Assembly (NCBI GenBank): GCA_030272155.1
Contig: CP126203.1
Location: 4,284,501-4,348,500 of the forward strand
Reading direction: 5' to 3'
Source: Tetradesmus obliquus
Taxonomy: Eukaryota; Chlorophyta; Chlorophyceae; Sphaeropleales; Scenedesmaceae
Length of the DNA: 64,000 bases
Shown: positions 5,156 through 61,004 of the stretch, one piece after another
Layout: each line of letters opens with the position of its first letter
Numbering within the stretch: position 1 is the first letter of the stretch
Position numbers and translations under genes: made by a program
The notes under the pieces: model-generated
Databases searched by the model: none
What the model was told of the DNA's origin: nothing
What the model saw: the letters and a program-made list of their open reading frames with translations, nothing else

Positions 5156-5835
5156 ACAGCCTCACGAGGGCAGCACAGACTTGAGCTCCAAAGCGTCTGA
5201 CTCAGCAATCGCCTTCCAACATAAAGCCCCACCCTCCAAGCTAGCAGCCCGCCCCAGCAGCTCCCCGCTTTTCAGCGCATTGTGCGTCCACAGCAGCCCA
5301 AACCTGAGCCCGGTGCTGTGCTAGCCTCACCAAAGCAGCAAAGATAAAAAAAGCAACCATCACGCCTTGCGCGGAAGCACATGTGTACAGCACTTGACTG
5401 TAGCCGCTCACGAGGGCAGCACAGACTTCAGCTCCAAAGCGTCTGACTCAGCAGTCGCCTTCAAACATAAAGCCCCACCCTCCAAGCTAGCAGCCCGCCC
5501 CAGCAGCTCCCCGCTTTTCAGCGCATTGTGCGTCCACAGCAGCCCAAACCTGAGCCCGGTGCTGTGCTAGCCTCACCAAAGCAGCAAAGATAAAAAAGCA
5601 ACCATCACGCCTTGCGCGGAAGCACATGTGTACAGCACTTGACTGTAGCCGCTCACGAGGGCAGCACAGACTTCAGCTCCAAAGCGTCTGACTCAGCAGT
5701 CGCCTTCAAACATAAAGCCCCACCCTCCAAGCTAGCAGCCCGCCCCGGCAACTCCCCACTTTTCAGACCATTGTGCGCCCACAGCAGCCCAAACATGAGC
5801 CCGGTGCTCTTGGGGATGGATATGTCCAGCACAAA
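5155..5835 (-). repeat. Three tandem copies (about 245 bp) of the Nudix terminal exon
   Basis: Copies begin near 5161, 5407 and 5652 (spacings 246 and 245). Each encodes on the minus strand a tail ending ALELKSVLPS then TGA. The two downstream copies are almost identical to each other and are preceded by a stop-containing sequence instead of an exon. They therefore lie beyond the functional stop at 5653-5655 and are 3' flanking or UTR duplications. Confidence 0.85.
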
Positions 5836-12072: not shown

Positions 12073-14405
12073 AGCACAACGTTGGGCCGCAGCAGCAGCA
12101 ACAGCCGCTAGCATGTCACTTGCTGCACCGTCACAACACTGGCTGCTGAGCTGCACACCATGCACAGCACGTGAGACGCGAACATATAAGCTCTGCGTCT
12201 GACACCCTCATTTGCAGAATCACCCAGCAACACAGGTCACCACATGTCTGTGGTTGCTCCAGAACACTTACCCATCCAGCTTGAAGCTGAGGGGTTTGAC
12301 TGCTAGGTCAGCATATGCCAGCTGGAATCAGTCACTTTTGCCGACCACCAGCAAGCCTTAGCTGGTTCAAAATGCAGCGGCACGCGGGCATCTTAGGAGC
12401 AAAACACACCATACGCTGCACATACAGCATGCAGACTGCAAACGGCACGAGTGTTTGCTCCGACTCCCTCGTCTGCAGGTCCATTCAGCAACATGCTGCA
12501 GAGCGACATGTGCTGCTGCTCACCCGTCCAGCTTGAAGCTGAGGGGTTTGACTGCCAGGTCAGCATACGCCAGCTGGAATCAGTCACGTTCCCTACCACC
12601 AGCACGACGTAGCTGATTCAAATTGCAGGCATCTGGTGGCACGCTGGCATCAAAGGAGCATAACACGGCATATGCTGCACTTTGAGCGTGTAGACTGCAA
12701 ACGGCATGAGTTGTTGCTCCGACTCCCACTTGTGCGGGTTCACCCAGCAACATGCTGCAGAGCAACATGTGCTATGGCTCACCCGTCCAACTTGGAGCTG
12801 AGGGGTTTGACTGCCAGGTCAGCATATGCCAGCTGGGTGCCGCGTGGCGGGTTGCAGAGCAGCTGGATGGCCTCTGCACAATCATTACAGCAGCATTCCG
12901 CGAGGCAAGCAGTCAGCCAAGCTCTGAAGGTGTTGAGCAACAGGAAACGCAGCACGTCCCAACCGAAGCTTGCAGCAGTGCCGCTGTAATGCTGCTGGCA
13001 TGCACCCCAGTTCACTTCCATACCAAGCGCGCCATTGTGCGATGTATTTGTAGCAGAAACGTTTGAGACAATCTCAGCTCACCTTCTAACAAGAAAAACA
13101 TGCCGTGCTCCACGGACAGCATGCCTTGCATGAAGTGCAGGCTAATCGGGAGCAAACCAAAAAGCCAGCCAGCATCCCAGACAACCTGCAGCTCACCTTC
13201 CAGCAACAACAAACCATGCCGCGCTCCAAGTAGCATGCCTTTAACCCAGCCCCAAATCCTGGTTATGTGCAGGCATGATGATACTTGCATCTAACACAAT
13301 TGCAGCCCACCTTCAAGCGAGAAAAACATGCTGTGCTCCACAGGCAGCATGCCCTGCAGGAAGTGCAGCCTAAAGGCGATAACAACAACAAAAAAACAAG
13401 CACCCCATAGTACCTTCTACTCACCCTCCAGCAAGAAGAACATTTCGTGCTCCACAACCAGCATGCCTTGCTGGAATCGCAGCCGAAGCATAGCATTAAC
13501 ATGTGTGTATTGAAGCAAAACTTTAGCCCACCTTCAAGCGAGAAGAACATGCCGTGCTCCACGGGCAGCATGCCCTGCAGGAAGTGCAGCCGCTCCTGCA
13601 GCTGCTGCCCCTCCACACGCAGCCCCGCATGCAGCCGCAGCACCGTCACAGGCGTGCTCGCTGCGCAGGAGCAAAGGCAGATGCATGTACAGATGAGGCA
13701 CAGCAACATGGCACATCAGCAAGCACAGGGTAAGAGCTGTGGCAGGGAAGCAGAGTGAAGGTGTCAACTACCTTTGCTGCGTAACCAATACCAGTTGCTA
13801 GTACTACAGAAACATTGCAACACTCCACACCAGCCCACGGTGGACAGCTGCACTTGGATACATGCTTCCGCTGCTGTGCTCTGTGCAGCAGGCCATGGTG
13901 CTTCCCTCTATCTATCCAGCGCTTCCAGAAACTGCCGCACTGTCCTTCCAAAACTACCCACAGCCCAGGATGTTGACCACATCGATGCCCAGCACTTGCA
14001 GGAGCCAATGCGGGTGCTGCAAGCATCCCGCATCCATCCACACAAAAGCCCACCACGCACAGCTGCGCTTGCATACCTAACTACAGCTGCTGCAAGCCCT
14101 GCAAGGCATGCTGCTGTGCTGCACTGCTGCAATGCTAGCCTGAACAGCCATGGTCTATGAGGAACTGCCACTCACTGTCCTTGCTGATCTGCAGGACCTT
14201 GAGCACTGCCCATAGCCCCAGGATGTTGACCACGCCTATGCCCAGCACTTGCAGGAGCCAGTGCGTGCGGCCCTCGCCCACTTGAACCAGCTCCTGCGCC
14301 TGCTGCTGCTTGCAGGAAAGCTGCTGCTGGGGCTCTGACGTCAGCTGTGGAGCGCCTGGCAGCTGCTGCATGATGCGCTCCTGCTGCAGTGCTGCAGGTG
14401 CTTGG
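10657..14405 (-). CDS. DUF1517-like membrane protein (5' part unresolved)
   Basis: Exons I can support in coding order: 14176..14405, 13532..13660, about 13005..12783, 11898..12028, 11384..11517, 11041..11139, 10657..10770 (stop TGA). Phases agree for the last four junctions and between the first two. The first exon holds a hydrophobic helix (HWLLQVLGIGVVNILGLWAV). Then come VTVLRLHAGLRVEGQQLQER, YDLFKKYAAAEQETAIAEE, TSCVVVTLVMLAQGTVSMP, LRSGQLLAVELLMTPDD, FLSEAQLQE and DYPFFTDL. This order (a KLQVGLL-like helix, then '(V)VT(L/I)LV...', '(L)AVE(V)LWTP...LSE.EL...YP.L..L') resembles DUF1517 (PF07466) proteins of plastids and cyanobacteria, whose biochemical role I do not know. The exon between 13532 and 13005 cannot be phased cleanly, because several near-identical exon tails compete there. 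The N-terminus probably extends to about 14800. Confidence 0.6.
12265..12840 (-). repeat. Three copies of a DUF1517-like exon tail with donor
   Basis: The segment LAYADLAVKPLSSKLDG (with small changes) followed by a GT donor occurs at about 12271-12325, 12523-12580 and 12783-12840. Each copy is followed by similar intron sequence. Only the 12783 copy is joined to a long upstream frame (to about 13005). Confidence 0.8.
13075..13605 (-). repeat. About five copies of the exon tail 'QGMLPVEHGMFFSLEG' plus donor
   Basis: Copies of the tail (variants MQGMLSVEHGMFFLLEG, FQQGMLVVEHEMFFLLEG and others) lie at about 13082-13140, 13190-13230, 13310-13365, 13425-13480 and 13532-13600. Each ends in a GT donor on the minus strand. 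The copy at 13532 continues into the complete exon. A partial copy of the upstream transmembrane exon also lies near 13960-14030. Confidence 0.8.
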
Positions 14406-20997: not shown

Positions 20998-23900
20998 ATG
21001 CAACCCAAGATGGCTTGGATGCAGACGCTGCTGCTGCTTGTCTGTGCCTTGGGCATCAGCTGCATGCGGGTCAGCGCATCGCAGCAGGACACACACAACC
21101 CGTTGGAACGCATAAAGCTCCACGCGGCGTCGCATGCGCCGGAAAGCAGCATCGTGTTGCGCTTGAACAGCACAGTGCTGGAGGCAGGCCACTCTCATCA
21201 GTGGTTTGAGCTGAGCTGGAGCGGTGTACAGCAGCCATCATATGCAGACTGGCTAGGATTGATAGTGCCTGCAGGAGCAGACATAATCAAGACTGCTCCT
21301 GCAAAGTACCAGATTGCAGCGATGGACAAGAACCACGTAAAGATAGGCGAAGGCCGCCTCAAGTAAGCCTGCAGATGGTTATTTGTGCAGAGTTAGGCAG
21401 CTGAATCGTCCTTGCAGTTGCACAGTGGTCGGGCACATGCGGCAGCAGGTTGCTGTGCAGCTGTGGGTTGATGCAATTGGAGATGGTCTCTTCGCAGCAG
21501 CTCCTGGCTGCCAGCTGCATTGTACCTCAGGCATGCACCTACTGCTGCCCTGAACCGCAACAGCAAAAACAGGTGCAGGCACTTGGTACGGCCTGACGCA
21601 GCGCACAACAGCAGCCTGGGCAGCTGCAGCTGTGCATCAGGTGTCGTGGCTATGCGCACCGTTCAGCCGCTCAGCTGCTGCGCTGTTGCAGACACCTGCA
21701 GTGCGGCATGCTCTCTGCCGCGTCAGCAGCGTGCTGCTGCCTGGCCTGCGCCACACTCACATGCCTGCCTGCTTGCCAACTTTGGTGCAGGTTCCGCCTC
21801 ATCAACTACCGGTCCGACATGCAATTTGCCTTCTTCAGGGGCGGCATGATGGTGCCGCAGCTGGCTGCGCTGTCCCCAATCATCCGAGTGCAGAACCCCA
21901 ACGAGCCCCTGCAGCGCCATTTGGCACTCACAGGAGATAACACGTGAGGGTTATCAGCACCTAAAACACGCAAGTACACAAATTACAGCTGCTTTGCTGC
22001 GCAGCCGCGCTGCTTGCTGCTGATGTGTGACCTGTATCCTTGCACTCGGGACTCACTGGCAATAACATGTGAGGGGCCAGGAGGGGTAGTAGTAGGCACC
22101 CTGCAGCTGCATACTGCGCTGCCGCGCTGCTTGCTGCACAAGAGTGCACTACTGCTGACGTGTAGCCTGTATCCTTGCACCGACGAGCGCGACAATAATG
22201 ACAGCCATCAACATAGCAGCAGCCATCTGCCATCATTGTAGCAACTCCTTGGCTGAAACCCATAACCAAGTATTCTGTGCCTGCAACCTTTCACAGGCAA
22301 ATGATGGTGCAGTGGGTCACCAAGAACAGCAGCAACCCTACAGTCAAGTGGGGCACATCTCCAGGAGCCTACAACCACAGCGCTGCAGCTGTCAGCAGCA
22401 CATACTGCAGGCAGGAGCTCTGCGGGCCTCCAGCTAATGATGCTGGGTTTGTTGACCCTGGCCTGTTCCATGCTGCTCTTGTGGAAGGTTTGACCCCTGG
22501 TCAACGCTACTACTACGTTGTGGGGGATGAGGTGAGGGGGAAAGCACAACAGACTGCTTTCATGGCAGCTCAAAGGCCTGTTTCATGCTGCTCTGGTGGA
22601 GGGGTTGACCCCTGGTCAGCGCGACTACTACATTCAACGTAGTACACAAGTAGTACTCAAGTTGTGGGAGATGAGGTGAGAGGGTTAGCACACTAGGCAG
22701 GCCAAGTGGCTTGTTTCCTGCTGCCTCTTGTGGAGGGCTTGATGCCTGGTCAACGCTACTATGACGTTTTGGGCGATGAGGTCGGTCTGGGACCAGCTGG
22801 CTGTACCGTACTGTACAGTGCTTGTTACATGTACACTTGGTCGTGAGTTGGTACAGTATGTGCTGTGCAGGGGTAACTAATGATCCAGCGAAGGTGTGTG
22901 CGGCAAAAGTATGCGCCTGTTTCCCAGCATAGCACTAAACAGCGGTCATGTCTGACGTGCTGCTTGCAGGAGTGGGGGTTCTCGCCTGAGGCCTCTTTTG
23001 TTGCTGCTCCTCCAGCGGGCCCACAAACACGTGTGAAGGTGCTGGCAGTTGCTGACCTGGGGCAGGGGGAGGTTGATGGCTCCATGGAGCAGAGCGAGAT
23101 GCTGGTCAGCCTCAACACCACAGCAAGGTGAGGCTTTAATGATAAGACTCCAGCTTGATCAGACCTGAGGCTATAACATAGTTTGGTAAGGCCATGAAAA
23201 AGCGGGTGATGACAGCATCTTGTGGTGTGTGGCAGTCAGTCAGTCAGGGCAGCAGCAACAGCAGCAGCACAACCTGCACAGTAGCGAGCTTCAGTGGTTT
23301 TTGAAGGTTCTGGGCAGGGACCTGGGGCAGGGCGAGGTTGATGGCTCCATGGAGCAGAGTGAGATGCTGGTCAGCCTCAACACAACGACAAGGTAAGGCT
23401 GCTTGATGCCAGCTTGACACGTTGGGCCTGCCGGCGTGAGAGTGATACGCAGTGGATGGTGGCAGCACCTGGCAGTGTGTTGTGGGCTGTCAGCCAGGGC
23501 AGCAGCAGCAGCAGCAGCAGCACATGCACAAAAGCCAGCTGCGGTTGCCTTGTGTAATGCACACGAATTACGGCAGACCTGGGCAAGGGGAGGGGGGCGG
23601 CTCCATGGAGCAGAGCGAGATGCTGGTCAGCCTCAACACCACACCATCCGGACAAAACTTTGCAGCAGAAGCCAGTCGAGTACAGGTACTGCAAGTCAAC
23701 ATCAGTGGTTTGCTAGTGCGTGCATGCTATCATCAGAGTGTCTGCTTTGGCTGCGTCAAGATGCTGCGCCTCGGCTGCTAACTAGCTGCGGCTGCTGCCG
23801 CAGGATGCTGCAGGACATCCAGCAGCATGACTTTCAGCTGCTGGTGCACAACGGGGACATCAGCTATGCACGCGGCTACGTCACACAGGTGTGCACAGGT

Positions 23901-24824
23901 TACACTTGATGGCAGCGCAGCCTATCACTAAAAGGAATGCCGTAGGATTGTGTGGACCGTGGCTGCTGTCCTGCACTGAACTGCAGCGACCTGTAGTTGT
24001 AATCTGGGTTGCCAGCAATGCTGATCGAGTTTATTGTTACGGACGGGTATAGCTCGCGCAGTCTGATTTCTAGCTGCCTCCAGCTGCTTGTGCACAATGG
24101 GGACATCAGCTACGCACGCGGCTACGTCACACAGGTGTGCACAGGTTACACTTGATGGCAGCGCAGCCTATCACTAAAAGGAATGCCGTAGGATTGTGTG
24201 GACCGTGGCTGCTGTCCTGCACTGAACTGCAGCGACCTGTAGTTGTAATCTGGGTTGCCAGCAATGCTGATCGAGTTTATTGTTTCGGACGGGTATAGCT
24301 CGCGCAGTCTGATTTCTAGCTGCCTCCAGCTGCTTGTGCACAATGGGGACATCAGCTACGCACGCGGCTACGTCACACAGGTGTGCACGGGCTAGACCTG
24401 ATGGCAGCGCACCCTATCACTGAAGGAATGCCAAATGGATGTGTCAATCGTGGCTGTTGTCCTGCATGGAACTGCAGCGACCAGTGGTTGTAATCTGGGT
24501 CGCCAGCTATGCTGTTTGGGTTTTTTTGTGGGATGTGTATGGCTGGCGCACTCCAGCTGCCAGCTGCTTCCAGCTGCTGCTGCACAACAGGGACATCAGC
24601 TACGCGCGCGGCTGCGTCTCACAGGTGTGCACAGGTTACAGTCGACGACAGCACTCATAAGACAATAGAATGTGTGCATTGAGGCGCTGTCCTGCACTGA
24701 ACTGCAGCGACTGCTGCTGCTCCTCTTGGTGCTACTGCTGCTGCTGCTGCTGCTGCCGTGAGACAATGTCATGCACGGGATGGTGTCTGCTGTACTTGTC
24801 AATTGCTGTAATCACAGCTGCTTG

Positions 24825-29753: not shown

Positions 29754-29757
29754 CGAT
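29754..29757 (+). other. Target-site duplication, 5' copy (CGAT)
   Basis: CGAT immediately precedes the TG that begins the element. The same four bases follow the terminal CA at 42965-42968. The inferred empty site is 'ctgcagg-CGAT-tgcttggg'. Confidence 0.7.
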
Positions 29758-30362
29758 TGACGCTAGATCTGGCCTCGTATGCGAATTCTCTCGACTAGCA
29801 GTGTTGCCAGCAGAGCATACTGTGCTGTTCCTGGGACTGTAGCCAGGCCACCTGGCTGGTTGTCACCAGAGCAGGGTCAATGATGTTGCATTCACCTACG
29901 ATAGCGAGCGTTCATGCCATTTCAGCATGCCTACATGCATTTGACGTCGACGATCGATTGGCATTTGCTTGTCAATTGGCATGGCATGGCGAGTTCGCAG
30001 CGAGCGAGTCTTAGGGCTTAAGCCCAAATGGCATGGAAGGCTGTCGGAAGGCAGGATTTACCCGGGGCACCGGGGTCAGCCCGTTGTCCTTGGTATGATC
30101 TCAAGAGTCGGGAGAGGTATGGCAAGTATGCTACAGCAGCCCTTGTCGTAATCATTCCAAGCCTCGACATTTCCGTCTCTTGTCCCACGAACACAGATAC
30201 ACTGTTGTTTCAGGGAGCTCAATCAATGAGTAAGATGAAACCAAGTGATGCAAGCCCTAGCTAAGCTTAGCGAACTGGCGTAGACACTGTCTACTAGACA
30301 GGCCATGGCGCCCAGACAAGCAGTCCGAGCAGCCATCATAGGCCGCCTAGATCAGCTTTCTT
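29758..30362 (+). repeat. Terminal repeat A1 (605 bp)
   Basis: Identical by eye to 42189-42793. It begins TGACGCTAGATCTGG. It does not end in CA: after 'agatcagctttctt' it passes directly into the leader ('ataccaagg'), whereas A2 passes into B2. It must contain or adjoin the element's promoter. No tRNA primer-binding site starting with TGG is evident just after it. Confidence 0.93.
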
Positions 30363-30545
30363 ATACCAAGGACCACCTTTCCTCCTCGCTTGCCGACTTG
30401 GAGCAGACCGGTCAGGCGAGCGGGCAGGGACGACGTGGCCAAGCATAGCTTAAAAGTACTTGCAGCGCTCGGTGTTTCAGCTGTTTATTTTTCAGTTGCC
30501 GTCTGAGCATCAGCCTTCAGTGGCTGTGCCAGTAGGCAGCGACGC
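30363..30545 (+). other. Retrotransposon 5' leader
   Basis: Non-coding sequence between A1 and the open Gag frame. An in-frame stop lies at 30504-30506, so the Gag frame is open from there, but no ATG occurs before 30846. Confidence 0.6.
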
Positions 30546-31390
30546 GTGGGTGTAACTCTGGACCGTCAGCACCAGTACGGTACTCGTTCGCAACATGCTC
30601 TGCCAGCCGTGGCAGGCCCGTTAGAAGATCAATATCAGTATATACAGCAGCACGCTGCACAACTAGCACATGCATCCAGGCAACAGTCTGGTCAGTTGGA
30701 CAGTGTCAGCAGTGACACCAGCAGTCCAGGGCTCAGCACGCCCCTGACACAAGACTCCTACTACAGTGCAGTTGCAGCAAGCGATATAGAGTTTAGCAAT
30801 CCCTTGTTCAAGCAGCACGTATCAGCGGCAGCTTACCACAGCAGCATGGCTTACGTTGCAGCAGGCAAGGGCAGCAGCAGTACGGGAGCAGACTTGTACA
30901 CGGGTGACAGGGGTGAGCCATACTTGCTGTACAAGCAGGTAGCTAAAACACAGCTGCATGGTCTGGAGCGCAAGCTGCGGCCAGAAAATGTAACACCTGA
31001 GATGCTAATTAACCTGCTGGCAGATCTCTGCAAGACTGGTTCAGATGCGCATGTTGTGCTGCAGCAGATATGGGCATGCCTCGGCAGTGAAGGGGAGGAG
31101 GCAGCAAAGGGCTACATTCCTGGCGCGCAGTTCAGTGCCGCGCTGCTTGCACGCTTACAGAAGCGGCACTCACAGCAGCGTGATATGATGGCGCTGATCA
31201 GGTCGCAGGATGACTACAAGATCCTGCTGCAGCTGGAGCAGGGTACCCCTGCACAGCGCCTGGCGAGCCCGCCAGACCAGCCGCCTCATACACAGCCATA
31301 CAGGCCGCCAGTTGCAGCGCTACCCGCTGCAGTGCCGCACGCTGTCAACCCAGCATCTGAGGCAACAGACAGGCTACTAGAGCAGCTGCT

Positions 31391-31424
<34 letters not shown>

Positions 31425-34400
31425 GTGCTGGACGTGGAGCAGGGACAGGTTGCACAGCCGCAGCAGCAGCCTCAGCTGCTGCAGCAGATCACAGCAGCAA
31501 TACGGGCTGAGCGTGCAGCAGATGCCGTACTGCTGGCACAGCAGCAGCTTCAGCCAGCAGTGCAGGCGCACAGCGGGCCCATCACAGTGCAGGGTCACTC
31601 CTACTACCCTGTGCAGGTGCTGGCACTCAAGCTCTGGCTGGCCCTGGACATTGTGTTCGGGCTAGCTGGGCCTGAGGAGACGCGGCAGTATGCAAGGCTG
31701 GGAGTGAAAGGTGCGCAGGGCAACCTGAGCTTCATAGCCTTTGCTAACCAGGTCAGCAAGTACCGGCAGATGTTTGCGCATCTGGAGACAGTGAGCCTGC
31801 TGCCAGCCACAGAGGTGTTCATTAGGGGCCTCAAGGACAGTGGCATGCAGGAGTGCGCACGCAGCTGGCTGCGCATGCAGGGTCCGATGAACCCTCTGCA
31901 GCTGGCGGAGCAGCTGGAGACTGAGTACGCCAATCAGGTGGCGTCAGCAACAGCAGGTACTGTCGTGCAGGTCTTCGCGCAGCAGCCAGCAGCACCCGGC
32001 AGCAGCTCAGCTGCTGCTGGCAGCAGCACAGCTGCTGCAGTTGGAGAGGGCAGCCCCATTCTGAACATCAAGACATGTACAGCAGCAGACGCAGAAGCCG
32101 CTTTTGCTAAGCACAGCAACTGCAAGCAACTGGTGGCTGCAGTGATGCTGGCGCAGACTAACGCCAAAGACCCACATGCTTTTTGTCACCTGCCTGAGCA
32201 TGCTCCTGGCAAGCTGGGCACCTATCACACCAATGCCCAGTGCAGGAAGCAGCGCACGCAGCAGAAACAGCAGGAAGAGCAGCAGGCGGGTCAGCAGCAG
32301 ACAAACCAGCAGCTGCTCAGCATGCTGCAGGGTTTCAAGCTGGGCGCAGCAGCGCAGCAGGCAAGCAGCAACGCTGGCTATCCAGCTGCTGTGAGCAGCA
32401 GCGGTGGCTATGGCTATCCAGCTGCTGCAAGCAGCAGCGGTGGCTACGGCTATCCAGCTGCTGCAAGCAGCAGCGGTGGCTACGGCTATCCAGCTGCTGC
32501 AAGCAGCAGCGGTGGCTACGGCTATCCTATAGCTACGTCCATGCTGCTTCCAGCAATGGGGCTGGCAGGGCAGGCACCTGGCAACCCGCCCAAGCCGCCA
32601 AGAGACGGCAGGAAGCAGGTAGGGCAAGGTGGAGGACAGCAGTGCGATATTTGTGGTTGGAAGCAGGGCCACGCTGGCAAGCCGTGCTATTACGATGACC
32701 CACAGTTTGCCAACAGCAAGGATTGGCCAGGCCCTGGACCTATGGTTCCACAGGAGCGACTGCAGCGTTATCTCTGGCGCTGCATTCAGCAGGGAGTGGC
32801 GCCAAGGCTGGGCCGCTGCAGCGAGGCCTACGTGCGGCTGCAGCAGGCAGGCCGATGGTCACAGCAGCAGGCGCAAGCGGTGCAGCAGCTGCAGCAGCAG
32901 CAGCAACAGCCACCAGTAGCTGCAGCAGGCAGCTACATGCAGCGCCCGCAGCCGCTGTATGCAGCCACACCACATACGCTGTTCCTGCCACCTGCAGGCC
33001 AGGATATGGCAGCAGCATATGCTGCTGTTCCAGCAATAGCAAGCACACAGTACCAGGCAGCAGCTGGTATGCAAGGGCAGCCGTTCATCAGCTTCCCTGC
33101 GACACCCACTGCTGCTCAGCAGCAGCAGGCCAACAGCAGTGGACAGCAGCAGCCACCCTCAAGCTACGGATTCTACACAGGCGCAGCCGGGACAGCAGTC
33201 TACATGCTTGGAGCAGCGCAGTGTGAGGCCAGCAAGCAGCAGCCAGTCTCACCAGGAGCTCTGGCAGCAGCAGCAGAGGGGGCTGTTACACGCAGCCGCT
33301 CTAAGGTCAAGCCGCATGAGCTCAAATCCTTCATAGTAGCAGCACCTGTGGAGGCAGATCCTAACACGCAGGAAGGAGGCAGGCCAGCGCCAGGCAGCGC
33401 GCCAGCAGTGGAGCCGCAGCAGCCAACAAGTGCTGCTGCAGCATTGCGCCGAATCCTGGTTCATGGTTTTGCTAGCATGCTGGAGGAGCTGAAGCAGCCA
33501 GAGCTGGTTGCAGCAGCGGCCCAACAGCAGGCTTGCGCCAGCACCGCTGCTGCAGCAGCAGCAGCAACACACTTAGATGTACAGCACACTGCTGCGTGCA
33601 GCAGCAGCAGCAGCAGCAACAGTGCAAGCTATGAGCAGCAGCAAAGCTGCAGCACTCAGGTGCAGGGCAGCCTTGAGTCAGGCAGCAGCGCATGCAGTCC
33701 CATGCAGGCAGCCTTGGCGGCCAAGCCGCTGTTCAAGCTGCCGCGCTTTGACTACGGCAGCGATCTGCGCAGCTTGACCCGTCTCGCCCGCATCAGCAGC
33801 CCAGCAGCAGGACAGCGACCGTTTGTCAGCCTGCAGCTGCAGAATGGCAAGGTGGTGACGCCTGAGATCACTGCAGCAGACAATGGCTGCAACTTACTGC
33901 TCATCACACTGCTCTGCTGTGAAGTGCTGGGCATTCCTTGGAACAGGGTGTCAGTGCCTGAGCTGCAGGCAATTGACGGCCAGGTGCGGCCTTCAATCAT
34001 AGGCCGCACAATGCCCTTCATGCTGCGCCTGACGCCAGAGGAAGGGCCGCAGCTGGAAATCCCAGTAACAATGGGTGCTTGTGTCATGGAGGGCGACGCA
34101 GGTGGGCTGTTTGACCTGTGCCTCGACACAGAGACACTCAAGCCCTACTATGCATTTGTCCACCCACTGGTGAAGCACTTAGTGTGGTACCCAGGAGCGC
34201 CGCAGGGTGACTGCAGCGTCGTGGCAGGCGTGCCTGTTGAGACCTGTTATGCAGGCACCGGCAGCGCAGCAGTGCAGCTCGCGCGCCACGGCATCGCAGC
34301 CCATGCAGTGCCACCAGGCATGGCAGCCACACTGAGCAGCAGCAGTGGCAGCGCCAACTACAGCACTGGGGTGCAAGCTGTTGAGAGCGACGGCAACGGC

Positions 34401-35897
34401 ATCACTGCTGCCAAAGGCACAGGCAGCAGCAGCGTGGCTGTTGCCACAAGCAATGCACACCCAACGCTGCAGCACATTGGGCCGCCAGGGCCCAGTCGCT
34501 GGTATGGCATCGACAGCCGCAGCAATGGCTTGCGAACTGCTGAGAGCAGCAGCTACGGCTACGCTGCTGCCACTGGCAGCAGCAGCCAGGCTGCTGCTAC
34601 AAGCAGGAGGCAGCCACTGCTGCACTGCTGTGGGCCGCCGACTCCAGCATTTGTCACCTGCACAATGCAGCCTGTGCAGCGTGCAACAGCAGAGGTTATC
34701 AGCAACGGCAGCAGCAATGGCTGGCAAGCTGCTGAGAGCGGCAGCTATGGCTTAGCTGCTGTCACAGGCAGCAGCAGCCTAGCTGCAGCTACAAGCAGCA
34801 CGCAGCCACTGCTGCACTTCTGCCAGCAGTCACAGCAGGTGTTTGTGACTGGCACCATGCCGCCTGTGCAGATGGCAACAGCTGAGTTTGTCACCTGCAG
34901 CAACGCAGAGGCATGTCGTGATTCAGCCCCCAAGAGCGCAGCTGCAGGCGCAACGGTTGCACCAGCAGCAGCCAACAATCACAGCAGCAGCGACAGTGGG
35001 GTATCAACCCTTGCAGCGCAGCAGCACGCTCAGAGCCGTGCCAAGCGCCGCGCTAGGCGCCACGCCAAACGCCGCGCCAGGCGCCGCCACGCGCCTGCCA
35101 GCAAACGAGCAGGGAGCAGGGCAAGCAGGACCAGGAGACTACGCAGCAGCAAGCAGCAGCTGCAGGAGCCACCACAGCCACCACCAGTCCAGGGCAGGCT
35201 GCATCAGGCTTCGCAGTACACACTGCAGCAGGTGTACGGTGATGCCACACATCGGTGTGGTGACTGTGGCAAGCCACAGTGGCTCACACAGCATGAACCC
35301 ATGGCTAGCTGTGGGTGCAGCACCAAGGTGGCACCAGTGCCACCGCTGCACTACTGCAGCGCAGTGCTAGGGCTGGTGCTGGCATTGCTGGTGGGGCTGT
35401 GTTATTGGTTGCTGCAGGTGCCCAGCATGGGCTTCAGCAGCTGGTGTGGCCGCAAGCTGCTGGCAGTAGCCAGCAAGCCTATCGTGGTGGAGAAGCCAGC
35501 TAAGCCGCCAGACACGCCACTGTCTGATGGTCAACAGCAGCACGGCACCTGTCGCAGCAGCAAGCGCAGGCGTGGCCAAACCCGGCGTCAACCAGTGACA
35601 CCAGAGCAGCCAGCACGTGTTTCTGTCAGCATCAGCAGTGTGCTGGCTAGGACAGTGCTGTTTGTTTGGCTGTGCATTCTGAGCAGCTGCAGTTTCGTGA
35701 CAGCCATGCAGATGGGCAGCAGTGTCATAGGTCACTTGGCAGCTGGAGTGCAGCAGGTGCAGCTGCAGCCACCAACAATACTGCCTGCGTACCTCAGCAG
35801 GCAGCAGGCAATGCAGCTGCTGGGGTGGGAGCTTGGCAATCTATCAGGCCGTAGGTTTCGCAGCCGTAAGCCAACAGTGCGGTTCCGACGAGCATGA
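30507..35897 (+). CDS. Retrotransposon Gag-protease polyprotein (ORF1)
   Basis: Forms the particle and processes the polyprotein. The frame is open from 30507, but the first ATG is at 30846 (MAYVAAGKG), giving 1683 aa; residues encoded before it look similar, so an unseen upstream start or splice is possible. A capsid-like helical domain lies at about 31620-31960 (FIRGLKDSGMQECARSWLR). A variant zinc knuckle, CDICGWKQGHAGKPC (CX2CX5HX4C), lies near 32640-32690. Four 36-bp repeats (SSSGGYGYPAAA) lie at 32376-32520. A retropepsin-like segment near 33830-34130 has DNG in place of the usual D(T/S)G (ITAADNGCNLLLI). After it come about three 70-80-residue repeats, a very Arg-rich stretch (35030-35160) and two hydrophobic helices (about 35355-35420 and 35640-35700) that could span a membrane. 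The last 65 nt overlap ORF2 in another frame. Confidence 0.82.
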
Positions 35898-38800
35898 GAT
35901 CCGCTGGTATCATGCTGATCCAGCAGCGCTGGACCAGCTTAGCCCTGATGGTGATGCCGAGGAGCCTCATGACACCCGGTGGAGTGTGCACCCAACAGGC
36001 CAGTGGATTATAGGTAATCACCCTGAGGCGTCAGCACAGCAGATGCAGCAACTGCAGCAAATGCTTGAACGCAACAAGGCCAGCTTTGCGTACAGCATGG
36101 CTGACTTGCCTGGGTACAGTGGGCCATTAGGACCAGTACATATAGAGTTGAAGGATCCACAGCAACGTATGTATCACTCCCCTCGCAGCTATACAGAGGA
36201 GGAGTTGGCTATCGGAGATGCAAAGGTGACTGAGATGCTGGAGGCAGATGTTATCTATGAGGCTCCCAGCACTAACCCGTATGCATTTGCAATCACGCTG
36301 CCTATGAAGCGTGCGCCAGATGGCAGCTGGTCGGATAAGCGTTTTTGTGTGGACCTCAGGCCTTTGAATGCTAATAGTGTTATCGATCATTATGGTATGC
36401 CTCTGCCTGAGGATCTTTTCAGGCGCATGCGAGGCGCCAAGTTCATGTCTAAAATTGATTGCAGGGCTGGGTTTTTCCAGATTATGCTGGATGAGCCCTC
36501 ACAGCGTATGTGTGCCTTCCACTGGCGCGGCAAGATATACTGTTACAAGCGGCTTTGCTTTGGCTTTCTCAATGCCACTGCTGAGTTCAGCAAGCGGCTT
36601 GAGCTGGTGGTGCAGCAAGCTGGACTGTCCCACTGCACATGTGTGTTTGTTGATGACATATGTGTTTTCTCCAACAGCATGGAGGAGCACATAGCCCAGC
36701 TGGACCAGTTGTTGCAGGCAATGGTAGGAGTTGGTTTTCGTGCACACCCTGCAAAGACAATTGTGGCCACAGATTGTATCCCTTTCCTGGGGCATCTTGT
36801 TACGGCGTCACAGCTGCAGCCTGAGCCAGCCAAGGTGTCAGCAATGTGTGCACTACAGCCACCTACCAGCGTCAAGCGTCTGCAGGCCCATTTGGGGCTT
36901 TTCAACTATTACCGCTGCTATATACCATCATTCAGCCGTATTGCGCAGCCGCTGTACAGCTTGCTGCGCAAGGGAGCAGCATTTATCTGGGGAGAGGAGC
37001 AGCAGGCAGCGTATGATCACCTGAAGGCGCAGCTGTCACAGCCTGGTACAGCACTGCGTCAGCCAGACGCCAACCTGCCGTTCCGTCTGTACACAGACTG
37101 GAGCAGCAACGGCATAGCGGCAGTGCTCAACCAGGTACAGCCCGATGGCAGCGAGACCATGGTTGCATGCAGCTCCCGCAGCCTGTCGCCAGCCGAGAAG
37201 AACTACGCAGCCTGGAAAGGTGAGATGCTGGCAGCAGTGTACGGCATTCGTGCCTTTCGCCCCTACTTGCTGTCTAGGGAGTTCCAGCTGGTGACAGACC
37301 ACCGTGCCTTACTCTGGCTGCTTACGCACAAAGCGCCAGTGGGGCAGCAGGCACGCTGGGTGCTGTCAATTTCAGAATATCAGTTCAGCCTAGTGCACAG
37401 GGCAGGCACAGAGAACCCAGCAGATTTGTTCAGCAGGGAGCCGTGTGCCAGTGCCGCAGATTGGACTGGTAGCCAGCTTGACAAGGCAGCAGAGGAGGTC
37501 AGGCTTCCTGCAGTGTATCTTGCAGACGGCAGTCCTGATCCTGTATCTTACAGCCATGATCAGCTTGCAGCAGAGCTTGGCATCAACAGCAGCCATGGCA
37601 GCGCAACCAGCTGCTCTGCACGGCTGCGTAGCACATCAGCAGCAGATGCTGCTGCAGGCAATGCTGCAGCATCACTGGCCACAGCGCGTCCATCAGCTTG
37701 CTTAGCACAGCTGGCGGATACAGTGCCAGTTACTATCAGTCAGATTCAACATAGCACATTGCAGGCCCTTGCAGCCATCAGCTCAGCCAGTTTCAGCGTT
37801 GATGCTTATGACCTTCCACCGGCTTCGCTGCTGGGGGGGGGTACCGGGCCTTTTTCGCAGCTATTGGCAGAGCCACCAGATGATGGCTGCAGCCAGCACA
37901 TGGCATGGCAGCAGCAGCAGCTCCGTTCAGAGGCAGCTCGCTGCGTCAATCAGGCTAGCTACTGCAGCAGCAGCAGTAGCAGCAGCAGCGGCAGTCCTCT
38001 GCCAGCACAGCAGCACCTACCTGGGAGCTACACGGGCCCGGCAGACAGCAGCGGAGTGCAAGCAACAGCGCAGCTGAATACAGCAAGCGTCAGTAGCAGC
38101 TTCTTCCCTGCAGCGCTCGCAGACGGCATTACGCTGTACGAGCCCTTTGGTGGGTTGTGTGCCGGCTTGGAGATGGTGTTGCGAGCAGGCATTAGAGTCA
38201 GGCAGTACCATTATAGTGATATTGATCCTGCAGCGCATCGCATAGCCCAGCACAGGGTGCGCCTACTGCAGACGCAGTACCCGTCACTGCTGGAGCCTGA
38301 AGCTTTGGCAGGTGCCTTCACAGCAGTGCCAGCAGACGTCCGACATGTCAGCTCCCAGCATTTGCGACAGGCAGTGCTGAACGCCCCAGCTAAGCAGTGG
38401 CTGGTGGTTGCGGGGTGGCCATGTCAGGACTTATCCACAGCAGGTAGATCACGCGGTATGGCAGGCAGTCGAGCTCAGCTCTTACACGACGCCGTGCGTA
38501 TCATTGGCGCCCTTCAGCAGCTGCAGCCTCACTTGCCCCCAGCCTATCTGCTGGAGAATGTTGCTTTTCAGCATCATCATAGCCAGCAGATAGCAACCGC
38601 AGATTATTCACAGGTGTGTGCTATCATCGGCCAGCCCTTCGCCTTCGATGCAGCTCAGGCAGGGAGCCTAGCACACCGGCTGCGCAACTACTGGTGCAAC
38701 CTATGTCCACCAGGCAAGTTGCAGCAGTCCCTCAGCCTCATAGAGCGGCCAGCTCGCCGCAACGTCCAGCAAGCATTGCAGCAAGGGCGCGTTGCTATGC

Positions 38801-39747
38801 CAGTGCACCGCCCAGATCAGTCACCACAGCACATCAGCAACCAGCCGGGAGAGCCCCGCGCAGCGTGGCCAACACTCATGGGTAAGCAGGGCTCATATGC
38901 CTTTCGCCCTGGTCAGCCAGGCAGCATCCTGGACCTGACCAACCCAGCAGCAGCAGTCTGGGATGAGCCAACAGCTATAGAAAGGGAGATAGCACTAGGT
39001 TATGCACCTGGCAGCACCTCTGCAGAGGGACTGTCAGAGCGTGAGCGTTGTGCAGTATTGGGGCAGTGCATGGATGCCAATGCTTTGCAGGCCATCATGG
39101 CGAGTTGCTACGCCTGGTGGTTTCGCGAGCATGGTGCTGGCACAGCCATAGCTGCAGCTGCTGCATCACAACCACAGCAGCAGCGGCAGCAGCAGCACAC
39201 ACCAGTGCATTCAGCGGCAGCAGCAGTGGCAGCAGCAACAGCCACTGCTGCGCCCTACATTAACAGCAGCTATCCTTGGCAGCATGCAGTCTACACCGCA
39301 GCAGCAGCACAGGAGACCATAGCAGCCGGCGGCAGCAGCAATGACATCTGGACTGATCACCCAGCTTTGTCAGCACTGCAGCAAGGGCAGCTTCCAGCTG
39401 GTCTCAGCGCCAAGGAGCGCGATCGCATTCAGCAAAGGCTGAAGTACTTCAGGTGGGATCAGCAGCAGCAGCAGCTATTCAGGTTGATGCCTGATGGTGG
39501 GGTGCGCCTCGTGCCACCACCGCAGCAGCGGCGGGATCTTGTCTGGCAGCATCATCAGCAGTGTGGCCATTTTGGCGTGCGTCGCACAGCAGCGCTGTTA
39601 CATAACAAGTACTGGTGGCATGGAATGGTATCAGACACAGCATACTGCATCAGGCAGTGTGAGCATTGCGGTTGGGTCAGGGCCAGCTTCAGCAGCAAGC
39701 AGGAGCAGCTGCAGTCAATACCCATTAGCAGCCAGGGCTTCCGCTAG
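35833..39747 (+). CDS. Retrotransposon Pol part 1: reverse transcriptase, RNase H, C5 DNA methyltransferase, HHCC module
   Basis: The frame is +1 relative to ORF1 and opens with a TTG, not an ATG, so it is probably made by frameshifting within the 35833-35897 overlap. RT occupies about residues 100-330 (SDKRFCVDLRPLN, DCRAGFFQI, FVDDICVFSN near 36646, LGHLV). RNase H is at about 400-540 (LYTDWSSNG, TDHRALLWL, NPADLFSREP). A low-complexity linker follows. A DNA (cytosine-5) methyltransferase spans about 760-1100: motif I/II YEPFGGLCAGLEM and YSDIDP, motif IV AGWPCQDLS with the catalytic Cys codon at 38422, motif VI LLENV, motif VIII LAHRLRNYW, and the final motif LGQCMDANALQAI. The order is that of active, unpermuted enzymes. 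An HHCC zinc module (GHFGVRRTAALLH, CIRQCEHC) ends the ORF. It stops at TAG 39745-39747, six bases before the integrase's first catalytic Asp codon. Confidence 0.92.
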   Translation: MAIYQAVGFAAVSQQCGSDEHEIRWYHADPAALDQLSPDGDAEEPHDTRWSVHPTGQWIIGNHPEASAQQMQQLQQMLERNKASFAYSMADLPGYSGPLGPVHIELKDPQQRMYHSPRSYTEEELAIGDAKVTEMLEADVIYEAPSTNPYAFAITLPMKRAPDGSWSDKRFCVDLRPLNANSVIDHYGMPLPEDLFRRMRGAKFMSKIDCRAGFFQIMLDEPSQRMCAFHWRGKIYCYKRLCFGFLNATAEFSKRLELVVQQAGLSHCTCVFVDDICVFSNSMEEHIAQLDQLLQAMVGVGFRAHPAKTIVATDCIPFLGHLVTASQLQPEPAKVSAMCALQPPTSVKRLQAHLGLFNYYRCYIPSFSRIAQPLYSLLRKGAAFIWGEEQQAAYDHLKAQLSQPGTALRQPDANLPFRLYTDWSSNGIAAVLNQVQPDGSETMVACSSRSLSPAEKNYAAWKGEMLAAVYGIRAFRPYLLSREFQLVTDHRALLWLLTHKAPVGQQARWVLSISEYQFSLVHRAGTENPADLFSREPCASAADWTGSQLDKAAEEVRLPAVYLADGSPDPVSYSHDQLAAELGINSSHGSATSCSARLRSTSAADAAAGNAAASLATARPSACLAQLADTVPVTISQIQHSTLQALAAISSASFSVDAYDLPPASLLGGGTGPFSQLLAEPPDDGCSQHMAWQQQQLRSEAARCVNQASYCSSSSSSSSGSPLPAQQHLPGSYTGPADSSGVQATAQLNTASVSSSFFPAALADGITLYEPFGGLCAGLEMVLRAGIRVRQYHYSDIDPAAHRIAQHRVRLLQTQYPSLLEPEALAGAFTAVPADVRHVSSQHLRQAVLNAPAKQWLVVAGWPCQDLSTAGRSRGMAGSRAQLLHDAVRIIGALQQLQPHLPPAYLLENVAFQHHHSQQIATADYSQVCAIIGQPFAFDAAQAGSLAHRLRNYWCNLCPPGKLQQSLSLIERPARRNVQQALQQGRVAMPVHRPDQSPQHISNQPGEPRAAWPTLMGKQGSYAFRPGQPGSILDLTNPAAAVWDEPTAIEREIALGYAPGSTSAEGLSERERCAVLGQCMDANALQAIMASCYAWWFREHGAGTAIAAAAASQPQQQRQQQHTPVHSAAAAVAAATATAAPYINSSYPWQHAVYTAAAAQETIAAGGSSNDIWTDHPALSALQQGQLPAGLSAKERDRIQQRLKYFRWDQQQQQLFRLMPDGGVRLVPPPQQRRDLVWQHHQQCGHFGVRRTAALLHNKYWWHGMVSDTAYCIRQCEHCGWVRASFSSKQEQLQSIPISSQGFR

Positions 39748-41682
39748 CATGTGGATCTAGCCGGACCTTTCCCAGCCAGCAAGCGTGGTTCCAAGTACAT
39801 CATGCTGGCAGTTGAAGCTTTCAGTAAGTACTTGGTAGCTGTGCCACTGCCCAGCAAGGAGCCGGAGGCAGTAGCATTTGCTTTCCTGCACCATGTGCTG
39901 TCCAGATTTGCAGCACCTGGTCAGGTAGTCACAGATAACGGTGTGGAATTCACAGAAGGCGCATTTGCTCAGCTGCTGCTTGACTGCCTGATTGACCATG
40001 GCACAACATCCTTGCAGCACCCACGTGCAAATGGTCAGGCAGAAAAAGCAGTAGACACAGTGAAGCAGGCGCTGCGAAAAATGTGTTTAGATAAGTACAG
40101 GCTGGATGAGTGGGACACAGACGTAGCGTGGCTGTGCCTTGGCTACAACTGCAGCCCTCACAGCAGTCACAGCTTCACGCCGTACGAGCTAATGTACGCG
40201 CGGCCGCCTGTCGTACCTCCAGCAGTGCGTAGCAGCGTCAGTCAGCCATTAGATTTGGATGACCCAGCAGCTGCAGCAGCAGATCTGCTGGCCAGGAAGC
40301 AGCTAGTGCAGCAGCGCTGTCCAGCAGCAATGGCTAACTTACGCATTGCTCAGCACAGGGATCAGCGCAGGTATGAGGTGGTGCGCTCAGGACAAAATCG
40401 GCCTCGCATATACAGATTTATGCCAGGCGATTATGTCTACACGCAGCAGCACCAGCGCCACACAACGCTGCAGCCGCACGCCAGGCCAGCTATTCTGCGT
40501 GTCAGCGAGGTCAAACCGTCAGGCGTGCTAGTGCTGGAGGGCAAGTGCGGGCGCACAGCAGAGATCAGGGCGGAGCATTGCGCGCCCTGTCACCTGCCCA
40601 ACCTCGATGGTGAGATTGATCCGCTTCTAGCAGGTGTTGATGCTTCCACCTGCTGTGAGGTGTGTACCTTTCCGCATCACGAGGCGCAGATGCTGTTGTG
40701 TGACATCTGCAATGCGGGTTACCACACCTACTGCTTAAAACCAGCACTCAGCAGCATTCCTGAAGGGTATTGGCTGTGCCCTCAGTGTGTGGAAGCAGGC
40801 ATGACAGTGGCAGCTGCAGAGCAGAGGGAGCAGCAACGTAGTGAGTTGCTGGCGCACGAGGGTAGACCCAACATCTACCCCAGTGCCGCAATGAGACGAC
40901 GCGACGCAGCAGCAGAGCAGCTGCATGGGCGTTACATCGTGCGCAGGTTCACAGACCCCAGCACTGGTCGCATACGGCGTTACTGGGGCCGTTTGCAGTA
41001 CCGCGGGCCGCTGGCTAGGCCTGTCTATTTTACAGCAATCTATGAAGACGGTGACAGCCAGGGCTTGTCAGTCAGGCAGGTCCGCCCATTGCTACAGCCA
41101 GCAGGGCAGCAGCCGCCAGTAGGTGTCAGCATACCTGATGTGCCAACGGAGCCAGTTGCAACAGCAGCAGTGGCTTCAGCCGCAGGTGATAGCATGAGGC
41201 AGTGGCTGCAGCAACATGTCGCAGCAGCAGCCAGCAGTTCAGTGACTGCAACAGCAGTGCCAGTTTCTGCTGCAGACGTGCAGCAGCTGGTCAATGCAGT
41301 TGATTTCAGCAGGGTGGAAACGGTGGTAGGCTCAGCTGGTTCAAGGCAGCAGCAGTTAGCACAGCAGCTGCAACCACTAATCAGCAGGCCTTGGCAGTAC
41401 AATGTGCCGGCGCACGCGGCATATGCGCTGGTATTGGCGCCAGCACCAGAGACTCTCCTTGATGCGTTGGTAGCGGCTATCAGCCAGCAGCCACCAATAC
41501 TGCTGTGCTATGCAGCTACAGCAGCACTACCTATCAGCATTGGGCAGTTGCTTCAGCAGCAGCGGCTGCTGGGTAGAGCAGCAGCAATCAGGGGTACAGA
41601 AGGTCTTTGGATAGTTTTGGCATGTGGCATCCAACCTCTTGCAGCATGGCTGCACCCGAGCTACCAGCACATTTTGCACTAA
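39748..41682 (+). CDS. Retrotransposon Pol part 2: DDE integrase, PHD finger, Tudor-like domain
   Basis: Same frame as the preceding ORF, separated only by UAG. There is no ATG before the first catalytic Asp (HVDLAGPF). The next ATG, at 39801, would remove that Asp, so translation must pass through the stop or the copy carries a nonsense mutation. The integrase core shows D (VDLAGPF), D (VVTDNGVEF) and E (HPRANGQAEKAVDT). A linker follows (RFMPGDYVYTQQ). Then comes a canonical PHD finger at 40651-40791: CCEVC, MLLCDICNAGYHTYC, GYWLCPQC (Cys4-His-Cys3). Next, at about 40920-41095, is a Tudor/Agenet-like stretch (RYWGRLQYRG, AIYEDGDSQGLS, VRPLLQ). PHD and Tudor folds read histone tails, so this tail may steer integration as chromodomains do in chromoviruses (inference). 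The ORF ends at TAA 41680-41682. Confidence 0.88.
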   Translation, partial: HVDLAGPFPASKRGSKYIMLAVEAFSKYLVAVPLPSKEPEAVAFAFLHHVLSRFAAPGQVVTDNGVEFTEGAFAQLLLDCLIDHGTTSLQHPRANGQAEKAVDTVKQALRKMCLDKYRLDEWDTDVAWLCLGYNCSPHSSHSFTPYELMYARPPVVPPAVRSSVSQPLDLDDPAAAAADLLARKQLVQQRCPAAMANLRIAQHRDQRRYEVVRSGQNRPRIYRFMPGDYVYTQQHQRHTTLQPHARPAILRVSEVKPSGVLVLEGKCGRTAEIRAEHCAPCHLPNLDGEIDPLLAGVDASTCCEVCTFPHHEAQMLLCDICNAGYHTYCLKPALSSIPEGYWLCPQCVEAGMTVAAAEQREQQRSELLAHEGRPNIYPSAAMRRRDAAAEQLHGRYIVRRFTDPSTGRIRRYWGRLQYRGPLARPVYFTAIYEDGDSQGLSVRQVRPLLQPAGQQPPVGVSIPDVPTEPVATAAVASAAGDSMRQWLQQHVAAAASSSVTATAVPVSAADVQQLVNAVDFSRVETVVGSAGSRQQQLAQQLQPLISRPWQYNVPAHAAYALVLAPAPETLLDALVAAISQQPPILLCYAATAALPISIGQLLQQQRLLGRAAAIRGTEGLWIVLACGIQPLAAWLHPSYQHILH

Positions 41683-42017
41683 GGTGTGGTGCTAGCTTCA
41701 TCACATTCATTTGCGCACCTCAATGAGAGGTGCAAGGCAGCGATGCAGCAGTATCATGCAGCAGCGATCGCTCTTAGCAGTTGTGTGTCTGCGAGTCAAC
41801 GTTTTAGCAACGGCGTTGGTGAGCCATGCACAGCAGCTTTGGCAAAAGAGTACAACAGTTGCTACCACCTAATAAAGGCATATTTTGTGCCATGGGCTGT
41901 TACATGGGTGGCGCGCTTTCCAATGTGCATGCCCAGGTGGTGTTTTGCGTTTCTCGCAGAGTCCATATGTCCGTCATTACTGCTGTCTCAGGGCTCACTT
42001 CCCCAGCAGTGGGGGGG
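41683..42017 (+). other. Retrotransposon 3' internal region with G-run next to B1
   Basis: Non-coding by inspection. It ends with 'agtggggggg' (42008-42017), which directly abuts the B1 repeat starting TGTAAAG. It could serve as a polypurine tract. That would mean minus/plus-strand priming is organised around B1-A2 as if it were a conventional LTR. Confidence 0.6.
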
Positions 42018-42186
42018 TGTAAAGTGTGCTTCAATGTGCATCAGGCACATCATGTTATGCAGCCTTTTCAAAACTTGTTGTAGCAGCATGTATGCTGTTT
42101 GGCAAGATGAAGCCAACAGCAGTGGCCAGGTGGCTCAAAGCCAGACTGTGCGATGCGATCTGCCGCCGATCTTATGTGTCACGTCA
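42018..42186 (+). repeat. Internal repeat B1 (169 bp)
   Basis: Identical by eye to 42796-42964. It starts TGTAAAGTGTGC and ends CACGTCA. It is separated from A2 by two bases, 'gc' (42187-42188). Confidence 0.93.
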
Positions 42187-42188
42187 GC

Positions 42189-42793
42189 TGACGCTAGATC
42201 TGGCCTCGTATGCGAATTCTCTCGACTAGCAGTGTTGCCAGCAGAGCATACTGTGCTGTTCCTGGGACTGTAGCCAGGCCACCTGGCTGGTTGTCACCAG
42301 AGCAGGGTCAATGATGTTGCATTCACCTACGATAGCGAGCGTTCATGCCATTTCAGCATGCCTACATGCATTTGACGTCGACGATCGATTGGCATTTGCT
42401 TGTCAATTGGCATGGCATGGCGAGTTCGCAGCGAGCGAGTCTTAGGGCTTAAGCCCAAATGGCATGGAAGGCTGTCGGAAGGCAGGATTTACCCGGGGCA
42501 CCGGGGTCAGCCCGTTGTCCTTGGTATGATCTCAAGAGTCGGGAGAGGTATGGCAAGTATGCTACAGCAGCCCTTGTCGTAATCATTCCAAGCCTCGACA
42601 TTTCCGTCTCTTGTCCCACGAACACAGATACACTGTTGTTTCAGGGAGCTCAATCAATGAGTAAGATGAAACCAAGTGATGCAAGCCCTAGCTAAGCTTA
42701 GCGAACTGGCGTAGACACTGTCTACTAGACAGGCCATGGCGCCCAGACAAGCAGTCCGAGCAGCCATCATAGGCCGCCTAGATCAGCTTTCTT
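42189..42793 (+). repeat. Repeat A2 (605 bp)
   Basis: Identical by eye to A1 (offset 12,431). It is joined to B2 through two extra T (42794-42795). Confidence 0.93.
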
Positions 42794-42795
42794 TT

Positions 42796-42964
42796 TGTAA
42801 AGTGTGCTTCAATGTGCATCAGGCACATCATGTTATGCAGCCTTTTCAAAACTTGTTGTAGCAGCATGTATGCTGTTTGGCAAGATGAAGCCAACAGCAG
42901 TGGCCAGGTGGCTCAAAGCCAGACTGTGCGATGCGATCTGCCGCCGATCTTATGTGTCACGTCA
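42796..42964 (+). repeat. Terminal repeat B2 (169 bp)
   Basis: Identical by eye to B1 (offset 778). Its last two bases, CA, form the right end of the element and are followed by CGAT. Confidence 0.93.
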
Positions 42965-42968
42965 CGAT
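42965..42968 (+). other. Target-site duplication, 3' copy (CGAT)
   Basis: Matches the four bases preceding the element at 29754-29757. Confidence 0.7.
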
Positions 42969-60500: not shown

Positions 60501-60970
60501 TTGCTGCGTTTGCTGCTGCTGCTGCTGGAGTTGCTGCTGCTGCAGCAGCATCAGCTGCTGCTGCTGTGGCATGGATGCCCTGCGCTGCGGCTTCTTTTTC
60601 TTCTGCTTTGCATTTGCAGCAGCAGCACTAGGCACCAACGGAGACGGCGGACTGCTGCTGGCACCGCCTGTACTCGCTGCTGCTGCTGCTGCTGCTGCAC
60701 CATCACCGTCATTCCCAGCCCCCACTGGATTATCAATGGACCTCCGCCGCGCCTGGGCCTGCACTTGCGCTTGAATGGCCTGTGCCAGCTGCGCCTGCGC
60801 TGCCGCCTGCAGCTGCTGCTGCAGCTGGTGCTGCAGGTGCCGCCTGAATGATGCTACCAGCTGAGTGGCCTCTGCAGCCTCAGCACCCCAGAAGTTGAAG
60901 GTGTTGATGGGGCAGTGTGTGGCAGTCAGGTTGATGAGCTGCGAAGGGCTACCATGCAGCGCGGGCACCT

Positions 60971-61004
<34 letters not shown>

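Follow-up and report, generated by a model that had tools for sequence, protein, structure and literature searches.

Split direct repeats with 4-bp target duplications in a Ty3/gypsy-type retrotransposon of Tetradesmus obliquus: possible integration from joined cDNA circles

We analyzed a 64,000-nucleotide stretch of the Tetradesmus obliquus genome (assembly GCA_030272155.1, contig CP126203.1, positions 4,284,501 to 4,348,500 of the forward strand), called the window here. It contains a retrotransposon at 29758..42964 with two direct repeats, A and B, which lie in the order A1-ORFs-B1-GC-A2-TT-B2 (ORF, open reading frame). The split-repeat order A-ORFs-B-GC-A-B is present in at least four families of this genome. 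The element encodes a DDE integrase core, and its copies are flanked by short target duplications. We read it as a self-priming Ty3/gypsy-type retrotransposon that probably integrates from joined circles of complementary DNA (cDNA), at a probability of about 0.72. Its long terminal repeat (LTR) would be B-GC-A, with the integrase attachment sites inside the LTR.

Repeats, target duplications and copies in the genome

The window copy contains the following features.

29754..29757, no strand: left copy of the target duplication, CGAT (sequence comparison)
29758..30362, + strand: repeat A1, starting with TGACGCTAG, 605 bp, identical to A2 (sequence comparison)
30086..30096, + strand: putative self-primer GTCCTTGGTAT at position 329 of A, within A1, matching the complement of the primer-binding site (complementarity)
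30363..30373, + strand: putative primer-binding site ATACCAAGGAC, directly 3' of A1 (complementarity)
42011..42017, + strand: G-tract GGGGGGG, putative polypurine tract adjoining B1 (three other families also have a G-tract here)
42018..42186, + strand: repeat B1, 169 bp, ending in CACGTCA (sequence comparison)
42187..42188, + strand: GC spacer in the palindromic B1-GC-A2 junction (CACGTCA-GC-TGACG)
42189..42793, + strand: repeat A2 (sequence comparison)
42794..42795, + strand: TT at the A2/B2 joint, proposed LTR-LTR end joint (joints of other copies)
42796..42964, + strand: repeat B2, ending in CA, the right terminus of the element (sequence comparison)
42965..42968, no strand: right copy of the target duplication, CGAT (sequence comparison)

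Both copies of A (605 bp) and both copies of B (169 bp) match without a mismatch. Chance cannot account for exact repeats of this length. A separate repeat search, in which a 300-bp reference copy is shown for A, recovered the same two pairs. CGAT is present at the outer ends of the element only. These repeats and this placement of CGAT had been described in an earlier note made from the sequence alone (the original prediction), and the comparison bears them out. The window contained no further direct repeat of at least 100 bp (E 1e-20) with copies more than 0.8 kb apart.

Further copies were sought in the same genome (104.66 Mb, 17 contigs). The integrase ORF matched eight relatives with 46 to 50% identity, and about 4.1 kb on the 3' side of each was inspected. 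A B1...B2 pair was present in three (L030, L032, and L035), and a single terminal B was present in three others (L031, L033, and L036). Searching the genome with each B1-A2-B2 retrieved A1 upstream in all three paired families. We numbered the window element family 1, L032 family 2, L030 family 3, and L035 family 4. The four DNA searches gave at least 25, 14, 19, and 56 matches. Family 1 includes a 99% identical copy on C4 with A1 and B1-GC-A2; its 3' half is inverted, it has an internal deletion, and AATT stands on both sides.

Both ends could be read in 17 copies, and only these were classed. All 17 start with TG and end with CA, with A at the left end and B at the right end. The 4-bp target duplication is perfect in 16; in the remaining copy, which is short, old, and solo, it matches at three of four positions. 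The 16 duplications all differ, save for ACCA, which is common to two solo copies. Eight copies are split, each with its own perfect duplication: the window copy, C4, C12 (family 2), C7 (family 3), and C7, C10, C1, and C6 (family 4). One copy is dimer-like (C14, family 4), and three are solo A-B copies. The other five have the form A...B without A2, also with duplications (C10 of family 1 and four of family 2). Three of these five contain an integrase match (C16, C12, and C3, all family 2). The C1 copy is 1.7 kb long, and the C10 copy is internally rearranged. For a family to be established, the original prediction had asked for further copies in this order and for a separate 4-bp duplication at each; the split copies other than the window copy are such copies, and they belong to four families. 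The prediction had set copies with two equal terminal LTRs against its own reading, and no such pair, B-A or A-B, borders any of the 17 copies.

In one copy each of families 1 to 3, A1 matches A2 perfectly over 605, 660, and 563 bp. The two differ at 1 of 1,683 and 2 of 1,756 bp in two family 4 copies. Because the two repeats are identical or nearly so in all five copies compared, the insertions look recent, and A1 and A2 look as if they were made in one round of replication, as LTRs are.

Six one-ended or truncated loci were left out of the 17 (C14:1654361, L043, L044, L045, L058, and L009). Three of 11 stretches inspected had no usable end (L059, L060, and L061). Only L016 of 13 further loci (L016 to L028) is among the 17. 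Five B-only matches were inspected, and L024 was kept out of the 17. It is a tiny A-B copy, about 124 bp long (C6:1251017-1251140), with CTGC on both sides. The remaining four (L017, L018, L023, and L026) are 86 to 98% identical to B and lack a recognizable start of A; two of them start almost exactly where B does. Each may be a solo copy whose A has diverged, or may be something else.

The inner junction, the A2/B2 joint and the priming signals

The junction between B1 and A2 is constant, whereas the joint between A2 and B2 varies. The B1-A2 spacer was left open in the search, and it is GC in 12 of 12 copies. CA-GC-TG is present in 11 of these, and the exception is one changed base in A2. The junction is palindromic because B1 ends in CACGTCA and A2 starts with TGACG.

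Family 2 has two joint forms in three copies, CTCTCTTA-A-TGTTTGG (one copy) and CTCTT-TGTTTGG (L043 and L044). Family 4 has eight A2/B2 joints, two of them in solo copies, and seven fall into six forms. The end of A is joined to AGTCC in L046 and L047. L058 has an extra C. About 9 nucleotides (nt) of B are trimmed in L049 and about 25 nt in L056. About 330 nt of A2 are gone in L035, which keeps the G-tract before B2 and has a complete A1 end of its own (L051). L057 keeps the primer-binding sequence CATCAACGCG(AG) between A and B. In the eighth (L009), a few bases leave the joint ambiguous. The variation seen here resembles that of LTR-LTR joints formed by end joining in retroviruses.

In each of the four families, B1 is immediately preceded by a G-tract. 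Where A1 ends, a stretch of 11, 11, 11, and 14 nt (families 1 to 4) has its exact complement within A. The complementarity begins at the boundary between A and the leader (one base earlier in family 2), and one step outside the boundary it is only 3 to 4 nt long. As controls, downstream positions gave as long a match at 1 of 11,595, 0 of 66, 0 of 139, and 0 of 3,356 positions (families 1 to 4). Positions inside A did so at 4 of 575, 2 of 630, 0 of 533, and 0 of 1,653; the four in family 1 are two 12-bp palindromes. No TGG, as in a transfer RNA (tRNA)-type primer site, stands directly 3' of A1 in any of the four families, and the window contains no tRNA gene for a primer comparison.

Reverse transcription thus looks ordinary, LTR-type, and self-primed. 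Given a primer site where A1 ends and a G-tract just before B1, the true LTR would be B-GC-A, and the integration termini TG...CA would lie inside it. The boundaries set by these two signals are the ones that meet at the A2/B2 joint, and therefore the cDNA should be B-GC-A, body, B-GC-A. In Tf1 and Tj1, as described in PMC4600332, the primer-binding site is likewise complementary to sequence within the 5' LTR. Unlike in those elements, the LTR proposed here is divided over the two ends of the insert, with the integration termini inside it.

Proposed integration cycle and alternatives

In the cycle that we propose, the RNA would start inside A1 near the self-primer and end in or beyond A2. The self-primer of 11 to 14 nt would anneal to the primer-binding site where A1 ends. 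The plus strand would start from the G-tract before B1, giving a linear cDNA with B-GC-A on either side of the body. Head-to-tail joining of its ends would give a 2-LTR circle, and the variable A2/B2 joint would be the place of joining. The integrase would then cut the palindromic CA^GC-TG inside one LTR, with loss of the GC. The TG...CA molecule would be inserted with the 4-bp duplication that the copies carry, giving A-ORFs-B-GC-A-joint-B. The A...B form, which is seen with duplications, would result from a 1-LTR circle or from linear cDNA opened at both of its junctions. Only the 2-LTR product could replicate again, because only that product keeps two copies of A.

To turn such a cDNA into A-body-B-GC-A-joint-B, its ends need to be joined and one inner B-GC-A needs to be opened, which points to a 2-LTR circle or a head-to-tail concatemer cut at the palindrome. 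An integrase cut of this kind has been described in vitro. Foamy-virus integrase is reported to cut a palindromic LTR-LTR junction and to leave a 2-nt 5' overhang (PMC1180852), and HIV-1 integrase is reported to cleave its own palindromic LTR-LTR junction (PMC1905944). Both are DDE integrases cutting a palindrome between LTR ends, as would be the case here. Unlike in those viruses, where the cut falls at the LTR-LTR joint, it would fall here at a preformed junction inside the proposed LTR, seemingly as the normal site.

Several observations weigh against this cycle. Two of the eight integrase relatives (L029 and L034) have neither a B pair nor a B end in the roughly 4.1 kb inspected on their 3' side. 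The right end of the C4 and C14 copies is only the last 7 to 8 nt of B and was recognized by way of the duplication. The count of joint forms includes the extra C of L058, whose own A1 is unread, and L049 and L057, which are solo A-B copies. The A1 of the short-A2 copy (C7, family 4; L051) is interrupted in mid-repeat by about 2.7 kb. Matches of 11 nt also occur inside A in families 1 and 2, at the six control positions given above. The A...B copies could instead be deletions between B1 and B2 after insertion, and the solo copies could be deletions between A1 and A2. One joint form is common to L043 and L044 and, in type, another to L046 and L047. Because these forms are shared, the joint may have been inherited there through read-through RNA.

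In an alternative related to the last point, the joint would be copied instead of being made anew. A read-through RNA would run from A1 to B2 and carry the A2/B2 joint, extra template switches would rebuild a linear cDNA with A at the start and B at the end, and integration would be as usual. The shared joint forms fit this, as do the TG...CA termini and the 4-bp duplication, which ordinary LTR elements also have. We consider it unlikely. Within families the joint takes several forms, among them one with A2 about 330 nt shorter beside a complete-ended A1, and some joints keep G-tract or primer-site sequence. In the usual LTR scheme the primer site and the polypurine tract fix the ends of the linear cDNA, which would here give B at the start and A at the end.

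Instead of monomer circles, the substrate could also be head-to-tail concatemers or a linear cDNA whose inner junctions are cut. The family 4 insertion at C14:827491-834654 (L052 to L054 and L063) reads A1...B1-GC-A2-leader-body fragment and ends in CATGACA/ATTT with an ATTT duplication. Its second leader and body fragment make it look like a trimmed dimer, and the A...B copies fit double cutting of linear cDNA. In 8 of the 9 both-ends-read insertions that hold B1-GC-A2, however, a second leader and body are absent, as in the simplest product of a monomer 2-LTR circle. We rate this substrate as slightly less probable again than a copied joint.

A tyrosine-recombinase element of the DIRS/PAT/TOC type, moving by circle recombination, would have the same A-ORFs-B-A-B order. 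Split direct repeats A1-B1-A2-B2 are described for PAT, Ngaro, and VIPER, and DIRS1 is described as holding the circle junction inside the element (PMC3266345, PMC4157794, PMC6681497). In the element studied here, no tyrosine recombinase was matched with Pfam in the 16 ORFs of at least 120 amino acids that lie within it (the ORF listing holds 19, of which 3 are outside), and a DDE integrase core is present instead. The element also has 4-bp duplications, which DIRS integration does not make according to PMC3266345 and PMC4157794. The duplications contradict a tyrosine-recombinase identity, which we take to be very improbable.

An assembly error, which the original prediction had kept as an alternative, a nested insertion, or a one-off recombination product has nothing in its favor beyond the odd layout. 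All three are contradicted by independent copies that belong to four families, lie on several contigs, and have separate duplications, and we give these explanations next to no weight.

Joined circles thus remain our preferred substrate. The original prediction had proposed that a Ty3-like lineage adopted a circle- or junction-based route. That route gains support in four families, with the correction that reverse transcription itself appears to be of the ordinary LTR type and that it is the integration sites which would lie inside the LTR. We lean, with less confidence, toward extending the cycle to a whole DDE-integrase lineage. In such a lineage, circles joined LTR to LTR would be an obligate precursor, the integrase would cut a preformed palindrome inside the LTR, and only 2-LTR circles would give replicating offspring.

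The 2-LTR circle of retroviruses is usually regarded as a dead end (PMC5314604), and one study argues that HIV-1 DNA that has stayed unintegrated is still capable of integration (PMC4372172). If our reading is true, integration from joined circles is the normal life cycle of these elements. An integrase site placed inside the LTR would then be a route to split repeats independent of the tyrosine-recombinase elements. The idea of joined circles is open to test in algal culture.

Coding content, known relatives and other features

The coding features of the window copy are as follows.

30507..35894, + strand: ORF1 in the gag position, stop to stop, 1,796 amino acids, with only a sub-threshold Pfam match (DUF3005)
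35731..39744, + strand: ORF2, pol part 1, 1,338 amino acids, with RVT_1, RNase H, a partial C5 methylase match, and an integrase zinc domain
36385..36795, + strand: reverse transcriptase domain match PF00078 (Pfam)
38401..38586, + strand: C5 cytosine DNA methylase match PF00145, profile positions 64 to 119 of 324 (Pfam)
39748..41679, + strand: ORF3, pol part 2, 644 amino acids, with a DDE integrase core (rve) and a PHD finger, in the frame of ORF2

The Pfam domains follow the order RVT_1, RT_RNaseH, methylase match, H2C2, and rve, which is the Ty3/gypsy order with a DDE integrase core. These domains and their order fit the Ty3/gypsy Pol with DDE integrase that the original prediction had described. 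The element is also like Ty3/gypsy in its short duplication at TG...CA ends. It is unlike Ty3/gypsy in that the integrated copy lacks two equal terminal LTRs, with A on the left and B on the right.

In the window copy, an in-frame TAG (39745-39747) lies between ORF2 and the integrase core. The C4 copy has no stop in its ORF3 match, and the open frame around the match is 880 amino acids long. Four of the eight genome relatives have an in-frame TGA within the integrase-PHD match, and one of them also has a TAA. ORF1 contains many CAG repeats, read as glutamine runs, and a 36-bp tandem repeat around 32376-32519.

The layout is known from one earlier report. KnitGypsy-Dnmt3 of Klebsormidium nitens, a charophyte, is described as having a DIRS-like repeat structure with typical Gypsy domains (de Mendoza et al. 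2018, PMC5890265). The same authors word their own DIRS elements as A-coding-B-A-B. By description, the element studied here is like KnitGypsy-Dnmt3 in its Gypsy-type Pol, its cytosine methyltransferase in the Pol ORF (a partial match here), and its DIRS-like repeats; the account of KnitGypsy-Dnmt3 in PMC5890265, as far as consulted, has no target duplications, priming, junction, or mechanism. The original prediction had held that split repeats belong to tyrosine-recombinase elements only. That rule was already broken, because the layout of KnitGypsy-Dnmt3 had been reported before. Our element shares with DIRS, PAT, TOC, and Ngaro the split direct repeats in A-ORFs-B-A-B order, and it differs in having a DDE integrase and 4-bp duplications, where those are described with a tyrosine recombinase and no duplication. 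Searches of an open-access library listed no other report of a Gypsy Pol with split repeats, subscription papers being outside the search. As far as searched, the mechanism is new within that literature.

Protein relatives were compared by their domains. The integrase ORF has at least 99 protein relatives (8,000 best candidates scored), Volvox among them, and none in viral contigs. For the reverse transcriptase part, the best 120 of 210 matches include one named after transposon 17.6/Gypsy. Among the same 120, the set of reverse transcriptase, methylase, integrase, and PHD finger occurs in EukProt and many jgi, lgn, and ena entries, and the set without the methylase match occurs in Pleodorina and Tetrabaena. 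The name Klebsormidium is absent from these 120 and from the at least 99 integrase relatives; most of the matches are nameless.

Elsewhere in the window, near-tandem arrays with a unit spacing of about 225 to 252 bp are present at 3510-3870, 5161-5808, 12267-12836, 13068-13591, 23835-24711, and 60874-61237.

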